Part shown: one piece after another, positions 13,083 through 23,649 of the stretch | Layout: each line of letters starts with the position of its first letter | Numbering within the stretch: position 1 is the stretch's first letter | NCBI GenBank assembly: GCA_026417755.1 | Contig: JAOACQ010000084.1 | Span: forward strand, 1-37,883 | DNA length: 37,883 bases | Source of the DNA: Brevinematales bacterium | Lineage (GTDB): Bacteria; Spirochaetota; Brevinematia; Brevinematales; JAOACQ01 | Direction of reading: 5' to 3' | Position numbers and translations under genes: made by a program | Notes under the pieces: model-generated | The model's database searches: none | What the model was told of the DNA's origin: nothing | The model's input: only the letters and a program-made list of their open reading frames with translations

Positions 13083-13775
13083 ATGAAACTAAAAATTATT
13101 TTAATTCTAATACCAGCAATATTTTTCTCACAACAGGCAAAGAATGATTTTGAAAGAGGGCTTGAATTGTATGCATCAAAAAAATTTCTTATGGCAGCCG
13201 GTAGCTTTAAAAAAGCTATAGATAGTGGTTTTCAAAATGAGAAGGTTTACTTTTATCTTGGAAATTCTTATGCCTTTATTGAAAATTATGACAAAGCCAT
13301 AGAAAACTTAAAAATGGCAAATGAGCTTTCAGAGAATCAGAAGTTTAAGTCTCTTGCCATACATAATATAGGTTATGTATATTATCTCAAAAAAGATTAT
13401 AAAAAATGCATAAATTACCTCAATATGGCATATTCGATAAACACCAATCTTAATCAGGTATTTTGGTATAAAGGTATGGCGTTTTATAAACTTAAAGACA
13501 AAGATAATACAATAATTGAATGGGAAAGATATCTCGAACTAGCCCCAAATGGTGAAGAAAGTGACAATATAAGGCGTGCCCTTGCAATCTTAAAATCAAA
13601 AGATTTTTCGTTTGAGAAAGATGGTGATAAAATTATAGTTAGTGATGGATTGTCAGATAAAGACAAAAAGATAGATGTATTACCACTGATTGATGTAGAA
13701 GGTGTTCTTGAAGAGATAAAACCTGAAGATAAAGGTAAGGTTTCTGATGAAGCGCTTGAAGAAATTGAGAAATAG
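13083..13775 (+). CDS. Secreted TPR protein
   Basis: This 230-aa protein has a signal peptide (residues 1-17, IILILIPAIFFSQQ) and about four consecutive TPRs. They are FERGLELYASKKFLMAAGSF, VYFYLGNSYAFIENYDKAIE, IHNIGYVYYLKKDYKKCINY and VFWYKGMAFYKLKDKDNTII. An acidic tail rich in Asp, Lys and Glu follows (after about residue 175). GGGA precedes the ATG. It lies between the secreted coiled-coil gene and the large TPR gene, all on the same strand with short gaps. It is likely periplasmic and a binding scaffold. The family is not recognised beyond TPR. Confidence 0.8.
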   Translation: MKLKIILILIPAIFFSQQAKNDFERGLELYASKKFLMAAGSFKKAIDSGFQNEKVYFYLGNSYAFIENYDKAIENLKMANELSENQKFKSLAIHNIGYVYYLKKDYKKCINYLNMAYSINTNLNQVFWYKGMAFYKLKDKDNTIIEWERYLELAPNGEESDNIRRALAILKSKDFSFEKDGDKIIVSDGLSDKDKKIDVLPLIDVEGVLEEIKPEDKGKVSDEALEEIEK

Positions 13776-13828: not shown

Positions 13829-15682
13829 ATGAAAAAGAAAAAAAAGGATAACAAAGGTTTGTTAATCGGTCTTATTATACTTCTCTTGGCAATTGGTGGT
13901 GGAATCCTATACTACTCAATAAATGGTTCAAAAAACAAAAACCTTGAGCAATATCTTGCTTTAGCTAAAGAATATATGCAAAATGAAGCATACGATAGAG
14001 CTTTAGACTATCTGGATAAAGCATATCTTATTAATCCAAAAGATAAAAGAATCGAAGAGTTGAGAAAAAAAATCCTAGAGCTCAAACAAAAACAAAAAGG
14101 AGAGAAAACAGAACCCATTGTCAAAGTAACTGTTGTTCAACCGGAAGCAGGAACTTCAAAAAAGCCCAAAGGAACAGAAGAAAAACCTGAAATCATTGAA
14201 AATAAATCAAGTCAATCAGCCAAAGACAAAACTCCAGATAAGGGAAAAGATCTAAAGAAAGATAAAGGTATGGATGTTCCAGAAATAAAAGACACTGCAA
14301 ACAATGAAGAAAAAGCAAAAAAGTTAATAGAAGAGGGAAAAGCTCTTCTAAAACAAAATAAATTTAAAGAGGCACTGGATAAGTTTAAAAATGCAGAAAA
14401 GCTGGATAAGAAAAACGCTGATGCGCTCGGTTATCAGGCACTTGCACATTATAAAATGAACAACACAAAGGATGCAATAGAAAAGACAAGAGAGGCTTTA
14501 AAAGAAGACCCAGCAAATGGAGTTTCTCACTTTGTGCAGGGAAGTATCCTCTATGACAAAAAACTTCCAGATGAGGCACTTGAAGAACTTAAAGCAGCTA
14601 TAAATGGAGGATATGAAGACGCTGAAGCCTATTTCCTTATGGGTGTAATTTATTACCTTAAAAAGATGTATAATGATGCAAGAGAAAAATTTGAAAAAGC
14701 AATATCTATAGATCCAGACTTTGCAAAGGCGTATTATAATCTTGGTCTTACTTATTCAGCATTAAAGAACGATAATGCTGCTCTTAAAAATTTTCAGGAA
14801 TGTTTGAAAAGAGACCCTCAGAATGCAAAAGCTCTTGTAAACATAGGTTCAATTTACTACTCAAACAAGATGTATGATAAGGCAGAAAAATTTCTGGAAA
14901 AGAGTGTTGAAGTTGATCCTTCTAACGATAGAGCATTTGTAAAACTTGGTAATACTTATGAAGAAACCGGGAAAAGAAATAAAGCCATTGAAGCATATCA
15001 AAAGGCATATCAATTAAATCCACAAAATTCTTTGGCTCTTTACAATCTTGGCAGAATGCTTGCTTTACAAAATAAACATGCCGAAGCCGTAAAATACTAT
15101 GAAAAATCAATAGAGGTTGATAATACATTTTATGCCTCATATCTCAACCTTGGTAATAGCTATCTGGAACTCAAAGAGTATGATAAAGCAGAAGAAGCAT
15201 ACAACAAAGCCTTAAACTTTAATAAGAATGATTTTAATGCTTATATAGGACTTGGATATCTTAATCTCAAAAAAGAAAATTATGAAGCAGCATTAAAAAA
15301 CTTTAAAAGGGCTATAGATCTAAATCCAAGATCCGATATAGCATACAAAGGTATGGGGGACGCTTATGCAAAAAGTGAAATATATGATGAAGCTATAAAA
15401 GCCTATTCTAAAGCAATAGAAATATTTCCATCCGATGTAGAAACAATGGGCACTCTTGGAGATGTTTATGTGCGTATTAAAGATTATGAAAATGCTTCTG
15501 AATGGTATGAAAAGGCAATAAAACTGGACACCAAAAACCCAGATACATACCTTAAACTTGGTGAAACCTATATAAGACTTGGTAAGAGAGCAGAAGCGAA
15601 AAAGATTTTAGAAAATTTAAAGGCAAAATTTCCAAATTATAAAAATATGTCAAAGGTTGACGAATATTTATCAAAGTTGTAA
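13829..15682 (+). CDS. Membrane-anchored TPR protein with about 14 repeats
   Basis: This 617-aa protein starts with a lysine-rich tip (MKKKKKDNKG), one membrane helix (residues 11-30) and one TPR (about 39-72). A low-complexity Lys/Glu/Pro linker (about 90-160) and about 13 tandem canonical TPRs to the C-terminus follow. Repeats are near-textbook, for example AKAYYNLGLTYSALKNDNAA and SLALYNLGRMLALQNKHAEA. The positive residues before the helix predict the N-terminus inside and the repeats on the periplasmic side. AGGAG precedes the ATG. It is 30 nt upstream of the TPR/Mrr-like gene and very probably shares its transcript. It would form a long superhelical scaffold. No partner can be named. 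Confidence 0.85.
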   Translation: MKKKKKDNKGLLIGLIILLLAIGGGILYYSINGSKNKNLEQYLALAKEYMQNEAYDRALDYLDKAYLINPKDKRIEELRKKILELKQKQKGEKTEPIVKVTVVQPEAGTSKKPKGTEEKPEIIENKSSQSAKDKTPDKGKDLKKDKGMDVPEIKDTANNEEKAKKLIEEGKALLKQNKFKEALDKFKNAEKLDKKNADALGYQALAHYKMNNTKDAIEKTREALKEDPANGVSHFVQGSILYDKKLPDEALEELKAAINGGYEDAEAYFLMGVIYYLKKMYNDAREKFEKAISIDPDFAKAYYNLGLTYSALKNDNAALKNFQECLKRDPQNAKALVNIGSIYYSNKMYDKAEKFLEKSVEVDPSNDRAFVKLGNTYEETGKRNKAIEAYQKAYQLNPQNSLALYNLGRMLALQNKHAEAVKYYEKSIEVDNTFYASYLNLGNSYLELKEYDKAEEAYNKALNFNKNDFNAYIGLGYLNLKKENYEAALKNFKRAIDLNPRSDIAYKGMGDAYAKSEIYDEAIKAYSKAIEIFPSDVETMGTLGDVYVRIKDYENASEWYEKAIKLDTKNPDTYLKLGETYIRLGKRAEAKKILENLKAKFPNYKNMSKVDEYLSKL

Positions 15683-15712
15683 AATATTATAGTAAAATAA
15701 TGGGGAAATTAA

Positions 15713-17074
15713 ATGGTAGAAATTTTAGTGGTCTCTGGTTTAATAATCGGTATTGTTGGTATAGGGATAGTATACGTTGTTAAGCAATTCATTAAACCTC
15801 ATCAGCTTGATACAATAAAGACAATGATAGAAAATAAAAAATTTCAGGAAGCTATTAATGCATTAAATAATATTCTAAAAAAAGATGAAGCAAACCCTCT
15901 CGCTCATCTATACCTGGCAGAAGCATATTTTGGCAATGGAAGTTATGACCTTGCTCTTGTAGAGTATAAACAGGTTATATTCAGTGGTAAGTTTTCAAAC
16001 TCTGCGATAGAAAGGACAGTAAGAAGAAGGTTAGCTGATATATATATGAAGTTTAACCAGCTTGAAGAAGCACAGAAAGAATATCTCATATTAGCCAAAA
16101 TTGAACCACATAATGCTGAATATCTATACCAGATAGGTAACATATTTTATTTGAGAGGTATGAGAGAACAGGCTCTTGCCTATCTTGATAAATCTTTAAA
16201 AGGTGGAAAGAGTTCGGCTGACATATATTTCTTAATGGGAAAAATTTATTATGAACTGAGTAGGCCAAATGAAGCTCTCGCAATTTTATCAAACTGTGTG
16301 AAATTAGAACCAAAACATTTTGAGGCACATTACTATATTGGACTTATCCTCAAGTCAATGAATACATATGGTAAAGCTGTTCAGGAGCTTGAGCTTGCTG
16401 AACAGACAAAGGATCTCACCCTTAAAATCAAAGTTATATATCAAAAAGGTCTATGCAAGATGGAAGTTGGAGACCTTGAAGGTGCTAAGGCAGATTTTGA
16501 GAGAGGTTTAAAGTATTCAACAGAGGAAAATAATACCACTATTGCCATAAGATATGCTTTAGGTCTTGCCTTTGAAAGGGAAAGAAGGCTTGTAGAAGCA
16601 GTTGAACAATGGGAAAGAGTAGCTCAACTTCGTCCAAATTTCCAGGATGTTCAACTTAAACTTGCACAATATGAGGATTTAAGAGTAGATGATAAACTGA
16701 AGGATATTTTGACTTCTACGCCTACAACCTTTGAAATTATAGTTCAAAACTTACTTAAGGGTATGGGATATGAGCCCCTCGAAAGCACAATGATAGATGA
16801 TGATAATATTGAAATTGTAGGTATGGAAAAAAGCACCAAATGGCGAAATGTAAGGGGTGGCAAAGTTCTTGTGAGAGTATCTAGAGACAATGAAGATGTT
16901 GGAGAAGATCAGATAGCTTCTCTTGTTGAAAAATTAAAAAATGTCCATGGAATAAGAGCTGTATATATAACAACGGGTAAATTTACTCCTCAGGCTTTAC
17001 GTTATTCTGAAAATAGACCTGTTGATCTATATGATAGACAAAAACTGAGTAATATTTTTAAACAAATCAGATAA
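15713..17074 (+). CDS. Membrane-anchored TPR protein with a C-terminal degenerate Mrr-like (PD-(D/E)XK) domain
   Basis: This 453-aa protein has an N-terminal membrane helix (residues 3-24), about seven TPRs (residues 30-330) and a C-terminal domain of about 115 residues that resembles the Mrr restriction-endonuclease fold. FEIIVQNLLKGMGYEPLE gives the first helix. GGKVLVRVSR sits where Mrr proteins have the catalytic strand QxK. AVYITTGKFTPQALRYSEN and PVDLYDRQKLSNIF match the conserved end. The catalytic Gln and Lys positions appear as Arg and Ser, so nuclease activity is probably lost. The few charges before the helix and the Lys residues after it predict the TPR and Mrr-like parts in the cytoplasm, opposite to the preceding gene's product. 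The family call for the C-terminal domain is inference from motifs. Confidence 0.78.
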   Translation: MVEILVVSGLIIGIVGIGIVYVVKQFIKPHQLDTIKTMIENKKFQEAINALNNILKKDEANPLAHLYLAEAYFGNGSYDLALVEYKQVIFSGKFSNSAIERTVRRRLADIYMKFNQLEEAQKEYLILAKIEPHNAEYLYQIGNIFYLRGMREQALAYLDKSLKGGKSSADIYFLMGKIYYELSRPNEALAILSNCVKLEPKHFEAHYYIGLILKSMNTYGKAVQELELAEQTKDLTLKIKVIYQKGLCKMEVGDLEGAKADFERGLKYSTEENNTTIAIRYALGLAFERERRLVEAVEQWERVAQLRPNFQDVQLKLAQYEDLRVDDKLKDILTSTPTTFEIIVQNLLKGMGYEPLESTMIDDDNIEIVGMEKSTKWRNVRGGKVLVRVSRDNEDVGEDQIASLVEKLKNVHGIRAVYITTGKFTPQALRYSENRPVDLYDRQKLSNIFKQIR

Positions 17075-17224
17075 TCAAGGCTAATCCTATTTATACTTCA
17101 ATAAGTAATCTTTGCTAAAAAATATTACAAAATTTTATTGTTTATAGAATAGCTGTTATTATAAAACCAATGTTAAAGTTAGCTATTTTTATTCCGATTT
17201 TATAAGTATTGAGTGGAGGAAATA

Positions 17225-18292
17225 ATGAAAAAATTTTTATTCATTTTTTTAATAAATTATTCTTTTTTATTCCCTGTAGATGAAAAAGTAAGAGAATACT
17301 GGAAAAAAACAATGGAGTATGGGGTTTCAGGACAGAGAACTGGCGTGATTAAATCAATAGAAGAAAATAAATCCCAGGAAGATTATTATTTGATAGAAAA
17401 GGCTCTTGTAAGCGACATAAACCCAGACGTTCGTGGTTATGCTGCATATAGCCTCATAAATCTAAAAATTGCAAAACCCGATGTATGGATAAATGCCTTG
17501 CAAAACGAAAAAGACACAGAAGTATTACGAAAGATAGCTTATGGTATTTCAGAACTAAAGATTTCAAATGCTGGCCCAGTTTTATACAACCAATTAACAA
17601 ATAGAATTGAAAATCAGAAAGAAACACTTCTTGTTGCAACTATTATAAGAGCTATAGGAGAAATAGGTTACAAACCTTCTTCTCAATATCTTGCTAATAT
17701 TTTATCAAACATTACTTATCCTAATGAAATAAGAAGTGCCGCAGCAATTGCAATTGGAAGTTTTAATGATGAAGCAAACATCCCATTACTTCAGCAAATT
17801 CTAGAAAACCCCGGAGAAGCTAAAGAAGTAAGAATGTATGCAGCTTATGGGATAGGTAGAACAGGATCGCAAAAGGCTTTTGATATACTTTCTCCATATA
17901 TTGAAAATGAAAAAGAAGATTTGAACATAAGACTCTGGTCAATAAGCGGACTTTCTTTTGTGAAGGGAGAAAAATCGATACAAAAACTTATAGACTTTTC
18001 AAAAGTAGATAATGTAAGAATTAGGCTTGAAGCTATAAAATCCCTTGGTAAATATGAAAAGAATGATAGGATTATTGAAATATTAAAATACAAAGCAGAT
18101 TTTGACCCAGAATTTGCGGTTAAAAAAGAAGCAAAAAAAGCATTGCAAAATATGGGTATTGATTTAGACAAAGAAAAATCAACACAAGATAAAAAACAAG
18201 AACAAACTGCCACTTCCACAACAAGTTCAACTAACACAACACAAAAAATACCAGAAAAGACAACTTCAACAAACAAAAATCAATCAAAGTAA
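17225..18292 (+). CDS. Secreted HEAT-repeat protein
   Basis: This 355-aa protein has a signal peptide (residues 1-18, FLFIFLINYSFLFPV) and about eight HEAT/PBS-lyase-type repeats. Examples are DVRGYAAYSLINLKI, LLVATIIRAIGEIG, EIRSAAAIAIGSFND, EVRMYAAYGIGRTGS and NVRIRLEAIKSLGKY. The C-terminal tail (about 315-355) is Thr/Ser/Gln/Lys-rich and probably disordered. A GTG at 17213 is in frame, but GGAGG lies 4-5 nt before the ATG at 17225, which also gives a cleaner signal peptide. Its 3' end overlaps convergent purL by 13 nt. It closes a run of repeat-scaffold genes and may belong with them, although the 150-nt gap upstream leaves room for its own promoter. The function is unknown. Confidence 0.8.
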   Translation: MKKFLFIFLINYSFLFPVDEKVREYWKKTMEYGVSGQRTGVIKSIEENKSQEDYYLIEKALVSDINPDVRGYAAYSLINLKIAKPDVWINALQNEKDTEVLRKIAYGISELKISNAGPVLYNQLTNRIENQKETLLVATIIRAIGEIGYKPSSQYLANILSNITYPNEIRSAAAIAIGSFNDEANIPLLQQILENPGEAKEVRMYAAYGIGRTGSQKAFDILSPYIENEKEDLNIRLWSISGLSFVKGEKSIQKLIDFSKVDNVRIRLEAIKSLGKYEKNDRIIEILKYKADFDPEFAVKKEAKKALQNMGIDLDKEKSTQDKKQEQTATSTTSSTNTTQKIPEKTTSTNKNQSK

Positions 18293-22628: not shown

Positions 22629-23246
22629 ATGTTTGGAGCGAAGAATATAATTGAATTTTTTCAGATTGGTGGATTTGCGATGTATTTTCTCGCTTTGTGT
22701 TCTATTATTGCTTTAGGAGTTTTTATTGAAAGAAGTATAACATATTATAGAAAATCAAGAATAAAGAGAGAATTAATTATGCATGAATTAAAAAAGGCTA
22801 TCAAAAATAAAAAAATAGAGAGTTTTAAAGAGAGATATAACTCTAGTATCTCTCCTCTTGCAGAGTTAACCCTCAAATATCTTGAAAATAAAGAACTTAA
22901 AAAGGATAAGTTAAAAAGTCTTATGGAAAGAACAATATTAGAAAAAGAAACAGAACTTGACAGGTATAATTCAATACTTGGAACTATAAGTAATGTTTCA
23001 ATCTATTTTGGTTTGCTTGGTACTGTTCTTGGTATTATAAAGGCTTTTGAAAGTATCGCCGTAACAGGTGCAAGCAGCGTATCTTCTGTAATAAAAGGTG
23101 TGGCAGAGGCATTATCTACAACTGCAGTCGGCCTTATGATAGCTATCCCTTCCAGCATAGCTTATAACTATTTTACAAATAAAGTAAATTCTTTTACTAC
23201 TGAGATGGAACTAATTGCTATGGAACTAAGTGAACTGGATGATTAA
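22629..23246 (+). CDS. exbB: ExbB/TolQ/MotA-family proton-channel subunit
   Basis: ExbB-type proteins form the pentameric inner-membrane channel that, with an ExbD dimer, uses the proton-motive force to drive TonB-dependent uptake or Tol-Pal envelope work. This 205-aa protein has a first helix at about 13-32 (GGFAMYFLALCSIIALGVFI) followed by the IERSITYYRK basic loop. A large cytoplasmic domain comes next, and then two helices with the family signature: YFGLLGTVLGIIKAF and STTAVGLMIAIPSSIAYNYF. GAGGAAAAT precedes the ATG. The ExbD-like gene starts at its stop codon. ExbB and TolQ cannot be told apart here, because neither TonB nor TolA, TolB and Pal are present. Confidence 0.93.
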   Translation: MFGAKNIIEFFQIGGFAMYFLALCSIIALGVFIERSITYYRKSRIKRELIMHELKKAIKNKKIESFKERYNSSISPLAELTLKYLENKELKKDKLKSLMERTILEKETELDRYNSILGTISNVSIYFGLLGTVLGIIKAFESIAVTGASSVSSVIKGVAEALSTTAVGLMIAIPSSIAYNYFTNKVNSFTTEMELIAMELSELDD

Positions 23247-23247
23247 A

Positions 23248-23649
23248 ATGAAAAGAATGAGAAAAAAAATAAAAAGTGAAATAAATATTACTCCTCTTAC
23301 AGATGTTTCACTTATGTTACTTTCCATATTTCTCATTACTACACCAATGATGGTTCAATCGGGACTTAATATAGAACTTCCTAAGTTAAAAAATGTAGAA
23401 AAAAATTTCCACAATAAAAATATAGAACTTAATATTGATAATAATGGAAATATATTTATAGATAACAAAAGATTGAACCTTATCAATCTTGAAGACGAAT
23501 TGAAGCAAAAAATTAAAGACACCAATGAAACCATAATTTTTATCAAAGCAGATAAAAATATAAAGTATGAGCTATTAATGAAGGTAATAGATACATCTAA
23601 AAAAGCTGGTGTTAAAAAGATTGCATTGGGTGTCGAAATTGATAACTAA
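23248..23649 (+). CDS. exbD: ExbD/TolR-family subunit
   Basis: This 133-aa partner of ExbB has one membrane helix followed by a periplasmic domain. The family signature is clear: a basic N-terminus, then INITPLTDVSLMLLSIFLIT, where the Asp is the proton-carrying residue. The periplasmic part ends with FIKADKNIKYELLMKVIDTSKKAG, the usual C-terminal motif. Three in-frame starts are possible: GTG at 23230, ATG at 23239 and ATG at 23248. None has a strong ribosome site. I chose 23248 because it gives the usual short basic tail and follows the exbB stop by one base, which suits re-initiation. No TonB gene follows. Confidence 0.9.
   Translation: MKRMRKKIKSEINITPLTDVSLMLLSIFLITTPMMVQSGLNIELPKLKNVEKNFHNKNIELNIDNNGNIFIDNKRLNLINLEDELKQKIKDTNETIIFIKADKNIKYELLMKVIDTSKKAGVKKIALGVEIDN

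Follow-up and report, generated by a model that had tools for sequence, protein, structure and literature searches.

Do two neighbouring genes, whose products are each predicted to anchor a long TPR array on a different side of the inner membrane, encode the two halves of one trans-membrane scaffold, or are they parts of something larger? The question was raised by an earlier note on a 37,883-nucleotide stretch of DNA (hereafter the window) from a draft genome of a spirochaete of the order Brevinematales (1.87 Mb in 119 contigs, 86.65% complete). The two genes, here called A and B, are indeed adjacent open reading frames encoding 617 and 453 amino acids (aa) and separated by 30 nt (Table 1). 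We find that the arrangement is real, conserved and under-described, and that it takes in a third TPR gene, T, and a nuclease-related domain at the C terminus of B, neither of which figured in the earlier note.

Table 1. Coordinates of the T, A and B genes, their domains and the upstream companion genes within the window
Feature	Position	Strand	Basis or remark
Companion gene, secreted TPR protein, 301 aa	10699..11604	+	YbgF/BamD-like, below cut-offs
Companion gene, secreted protein, 480 aa	11588..13030	+	no known family
T, secreted TPR protein, 230 aa	13083..13775	+	signal-peptide-like N-terminus; T. pallidum counterpart TP0470
T acidic C-terminal tail, last 15 aa, ends EALEEIEK	13728..13772	+	charge comparison
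A, signal-anchored TPR protein, 617 aa	13829..15682	+	predicted periplasmic; T. pallidum counterpart TP0468-0469
A membrane helix, ~residues 10-34, behind Lys-rich tip	13856..13930	+	mean Kyte-Doolittle hydropathy 2.51; flank net charge
A main TPR array, ~residues 162-605	14312..15643	+	Pfam
B, membrane-anchored TPR and pseudo-nuclease protein, 453 aa	15713..17074	+	predicted cytoplasmic; T. pallidum counterpart TP0471 (by position)
B membrane helix, ~residues 4-23	15722..15781	+	mean Kyte-Doolittle hydropathy 2.73; predicted N-out/C-in
B TPR superhelix, ~residues 38-319	15824..16669	+	Pfam, structure model
B C-terminal Mrr_cat-fold domain, residues 334-447	16712..17053	+	PF04471; catalytic residues lost

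Conservation of the gene cluster across spirochaetes

With a limit of E<=1e-15, a profile built for B matches 212 of 218 spirochaete genomes, some of them weakly. Among 104 non-redundant B loci, T and/or A flank B at 44 (both at 38, one at the other six, of which some lie at the end of a contig), and none of the 603 genes lying more than three positions from B is T-like; the neighbourhood is conserved in relatives far beyond the order, and the lack of conservation that would have spoken against the earlier interpretation is not seen. Within the Brevinematales the three genes run co-directionally as T>A>B (loci L068-L072 and L105), while many other spirochaete families, that of Treponema pallidum included, have the divergent order <A <T B>. 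In the sister group (f5), the genes for T, A and B lie apart.

The constant partner of A in this cluster is T. In 24 of the 30 genomes that list both places (from a sample of 60), T immediately precedes A on the same strand, and the linkage holds even where the B gene lies elsewhere, which marks T and A as the constant pair and B as a gene that joins them in many, not all, lineages. No T or A adjoins B at 60 of the 104 loci, including 8 that lie at the end of a contig; that 28 of these 60 have a STAS gene downstream of B indicates that B can work without T and A as neighbours. The real unit is accordingly better described as three genes, T, A and B, than as an A-B pair.

Two further genes encoding secreted proteins precede T in the window, and their counterparts stand in the same gene order at L068-L070, with 24-28% identity for the first and 24-37% for the second; both are kept with T>A>B in two families of the order. 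The 480-aa product of the second has no match in Pfam or NCBIfam. No terminator-like site was found on the + strand between 10400 and 18400, a result that fits an operon, if weakly. Downstream of B, the gene for a HEAT-repeat protein (17213-18292) probably starts at ATG 17225, behind GGAGG, rather than at GTG; farther along the window, at 22629-23649, the gene for a MotA/TolQ/ExbB-type protein is followed by a 139-aa open reading frame, perhaps its ExbD/TolR partner.

Charge patterns around the membrane helices of A and B

The description of A and B as TPR proteins with one N-terminal membrane helix each holds: the helix listed in Table 1 is the sole hydrophobic one in either protein, and the repeats give strong Pfam TPR_2 matches (7e-85 for A, 4e-24 for B). 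So does the account of their flanks, with a Lys-rich tip before the helix of A (MKKKKKDNK-TM) and, in B, no such tip and lysines behind the helix (MVE-TM-KQFIKPHQLDTIKTM).

We extended the positive-inside rule, from which opposite topologies had been proposed, to about 100 homologues of B and 35 of A. The 15 residues behind the helix are richer in Lys and Arg than those ahead of it in 95 of 101 B homologues (means 3.33 vs 0.29), which, although related sequences are non-independent events here and in the counts for A, points to an N-out, C-in orientation with the TPRs and the nuclease-like domain predicted to be cytoplasmic. Lys/Arg counts alone leave A homologues tied, 16 vs 16; by net charge, however, the N-flank is above the C-flank in 22 and below it in 4 of the 26 informative homologues, predicting the reverse orientation, N-in and C-out. 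Moreover, the A proteins of L071, L072 and L105 have ~140 basic, Lys/Ala/Pro-rich residues ahead of the helix, ending in KDRR, a stretch that would be hard to place outside the cytoplasm. The charge pattern thus supports arrays on opposite sides of the membrane, with no same-side result. As an observation apart, the Lys/Ala/Pro-rich basic tail of these three A orthologues resembles nucleic-acid-binding tails.

Database models are a poor guide to the identity of A. It exceeds the NCBIfam cut-offs of MamA (model NF040959, 206.7 bits against 200), PilW, LcrH/SycD and YbgF simultaneously, which speaks for generic TPR similarity; we set these names aside as cross-hits and note that automatic annotation, faced with four curated models passed at once, would misname the protein.

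The acidic tail of T

T, with its Pfam TPR_2 match of 6e-12, combines the features of the TP0470 family: a signal peptide, TPRs, an acidic tail, and A and B adjoining. The tail sets T apart from its surroundings, the mean net charge of the last 15 aa being -4.8 in 43 T proteins vs +0.5 in 1176 unrelated proteins encoded at these loci, and the last two residues including D or E in 41 of the 43 vs 22% of the 1176. Ahead of the tail, by contrast, the linker is freely variable, and in T. pallidum it is occupied by repeats. Assignment of T to BatC of Leptospira was rejected (23.2 bits against a cut-off of 175, model NF047507). TPR grooves accept acidic C-terminal tails of the EEVD type, and by this analogy it is plausible that the tail of T docks in the TPR groove of A.

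A degenerate Mrr fold in B

The C-terminal 120 residues of B match Mrr_cat (PF04471) at 6e-15, with 55.8 bits against a cut-off of 21, and the domain is present in all 17 family members scanned. AlphaFold2 modelled full-length B with a mean pLDDT of 89.3, the membrane helix running on into the first TPR helix, and the C-terminal domain alone with a pLDDT of 87.1. TPR structures dominate the fold matches of the full-length protein. For the domain alone, the best matches in the PDB are the nucleases MspJI and EndoMS; a sequence search of the PDB with the domain profile gave no match, so that the nuclease fold was recovered by fold search only.

The catalytic Asp and the Q-x-K lysine of the D..QxK motif are absent from 17 of 17 aligned B family domains (an alignment that leaves out rows L207, L209, L217, L220 and L228). 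In the Brevinematales, true Mrr-type proteins (L206 and L208) by contrast keep GDGGIDG or GDQGIDG followed by FQCKK or FQSKK; opposite the latter, B has VRVSR, and an invariant Arg sits beside the lost Q-x-K position throughout the family alignment. Judged by its sequence, the domain is a nuclease-dead Mrr fold, and it probably serves as a binding module.

Three observations lie beside this family. The window's genome encodes a second TPR and Mrr_cat protein, of ~570 aa (G000:C45:2241-3836), and the B operon of L121 contains such a protein too, behind its STAS gene. At L121, L136, L174 and their relatives, B lies upstream of a cNMP-binding/patatin or 912-aa protein, a STAS protein and a 730-810-aa protein without known family. 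At L200 (genome G074), a spirochaete without a FliF match, a B-like stretch is embedded in an open frame of 2,600-2,900 aa.

Counterparts in Treponema pallidum

The divergent form of the cluster is found at locus L186 of a T. pallidum genome (G068; one contig, 1,139,633 bases). Its T protein contains 17 copies of EAEEARRK, the repeat that defines TP0470 (PMC9531955), identifying TP0470 as the counterpart of T; its A protein is 650 aa long, which agrees with the published size of the fused TP0468-TP0469 (PMC2408589) and identifies that protein as the counterpart of A. TP0471 is assigned to B by position. TP0470 is described as periplasmic, with four pairs of TPR helices and a long repeat helix (PMC9531955), and differs from the window's T in that an array of 24-bp repeats separates its TPRs from its tail, an arrangement which suggests that the variable repeats are a spacer between the TPR domain and the conserved acidic tail. 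The papers found treat TP0470 mainly as a strain-typing marker and antigen and propose no joint function with its neighbours, and our literature search returned no publication linking TP0470, TP0468/0469 and TP0471, or T, A and B, as a system. A long-used typing marker of the syphilis bacterium is thereby placed in a conserved module, and three unlinked hypothetical genes become one such module with a testable architecture.

A proposed envelope adaptor module and its alternatives

The original interpretation, a scaffold made of A and B, is partly supported. Its claims on topology and neighbourhood are upheld, the former as a prediction from charge; an A-B complex is only putative, and the pair is incomplete without T, the constant partner of A, and without the apparently dead nuclease domain of B, a protein that often keeps company with STAS instead. 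We give even odds to a broader proposal, that T, A and B make up an old spirochaete envelope adaptor module of three TPR docking proteins. T would be secreted to the periplasm, carrying the acidic tail at its end, while A would stay tethered to the inner membrane through a signal anchor that is not cleaved, with its TPR superhelix in the periplasm; B, inserted the opposite way, would expose its own superhelix and the nuclease-dead Mrr-fold domain to the cytoplasm. A would receive T, plausibly by taking the acidic tail into its TPR groove, and would organise a periplasmic assembly, and B may recruit a cytoplasmic client to the same patch of membrane. If so, most spirochaetes have turned a restriction-enzyme fold to non-catalytic use within a membrane adaptor. 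That A and B are in contact is a conjecture prompted by the closeness of their genes and their predicted opposite topologies, and we think it rather improbable that the module goes as far as a spirochaete-specific relay, in which A and B would touch via their membrane helices, A would capture the tail of T, and the dead nuclease of B would pass the state of a signal or cargo to a cytoplasmic client.

The main rival makes B independent: T and A would form one periplasmic unit, and B a cytoplasm-facing adaptor that shares their locus or regulation in some lineages, with no trans-membrane complex. The persistence of T-A linkage where B lies elsewhere is what this reading expects, as is the separate conserved context of B with STAS and signalling genes; that B neighbours T/A in many families, whichever of the two gene orientations they have, goes against it, suggesting that selection keeps the genes close or that their adjacency is very old, and we consider this reading a serious possibility, though less probable than the adaptor module. 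The same STAS context could be taken further, to a partner-switching regulatory pathway scaffolded at the membrane by B, with a STAS antagonist, a SpoIIE-type phosphatase and a GAF or cNMP-binding protein as its components; A and T would provide its periplasmic sensor side in some lineages. A STAS gene of the anti-sigma antagonist type lies 2-4 genes downstream of B, on the same strand, at 34 loci, few of the 38 STAS genes across the loci lie anywhere else, and SpoIIE/GAF and cNMP-binding/patatin neighbours occur in the examples scanned. Neither in the window nor elsewhere in its order, however, is B directly followed by such genes, and T/A and STAS coincide at only 6 loci; we regard this role as unlikely.

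Two readings borrow from known machinery of other kinds. Membership of the periplasmic flagellar collar, alongside Borrelia FlcA and FlcB, is disfavoured and seems to us very unlikely. FliF is present in the window's own genome, and the known collar proteins (FlcA, FlcB, FlcC and BB0236) are, like T, A and B, spirochaete proteins that are secreted or sit in a membrane, and several of them contain TPRs (PMC8609358); yet A, B and T score just 79.4, 33.4 and 22.5 bits on the FlcA model (NF047371, cut-off 300), and B is predicted to face the cytoplasm. Flagellated families f36 (apparently Borrelia-like, and taken here as Borrelia) and f9 (apparently Leptospira-like) also have weak B matches (1e-16 to 1e-21 over both, 1e-16 to 1e-19 in f36) or none, compared with up to 1e-190 elsewhere. 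Co-occurrence of B with flagella is uninformative, since FliF is found in nearly all genomes and few good-quality genomes are without it. We find it scarcely credible that B acts at the membrane as a nuclease of restriction or anti-phage defence: the Mrr_cat match and weak PADLOC matches to mREase_IV and PDC-S02 would suit a nuclease, but the catalytic residues retained by true Mrr-type proteins of the order are gone from B, and near-universal presence in a phylum is unlike a defence gene.

Relation to known systems

The fold of the B C-terminal domain is shared with Mrr-family restriction endonucleases and with NACHT-associated inactive REases (NA-iREase1), but in B it is without catalytic residues and fused to a membrane helix and TPRs. 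The resemblance of A to the magnetosome TPR protein MamA consists in its model score; unlike MamA, A is a 617-aa protein with a membrane anchor and phylum-wide conservation, and no mam genes were found among the window proteins scanned. The direct counterparts of T, A and B remain those of T. pallidum, in their divergent arrangement (PMC9531955, PMC2408589).

For B, the nearest working parallel is LapB (YciM) of enterobacteria, a regulator docked at the inner membrane that has an N-terminal membrane segment, nine cytoplasmic TPRs and a small C-terminal domain and is complexed with the membrane protein PbgA/LapC (PMC11025326). B would share this build, an N-terminal membrane helix followed by TPRs predicted from the charge pattern to be cytoplasmic and by a C-terminal domain. 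It is nonetheless not a LapB: the NCBIfam LapB model, with a cut-off of 363, gives B 23.2 bits, an order of magnitude too few (A scores 79.1), and the C-terminal domain, which contains no Cys, has no LapB-type rubredoxin-like metal site. Where LapB ends in a rubredoxin, B ends in a predicted dead Mrr-fold domain, and where LapB has PbgA as its partner, the gene neighbours of B, A and T, encode TPR proteins.
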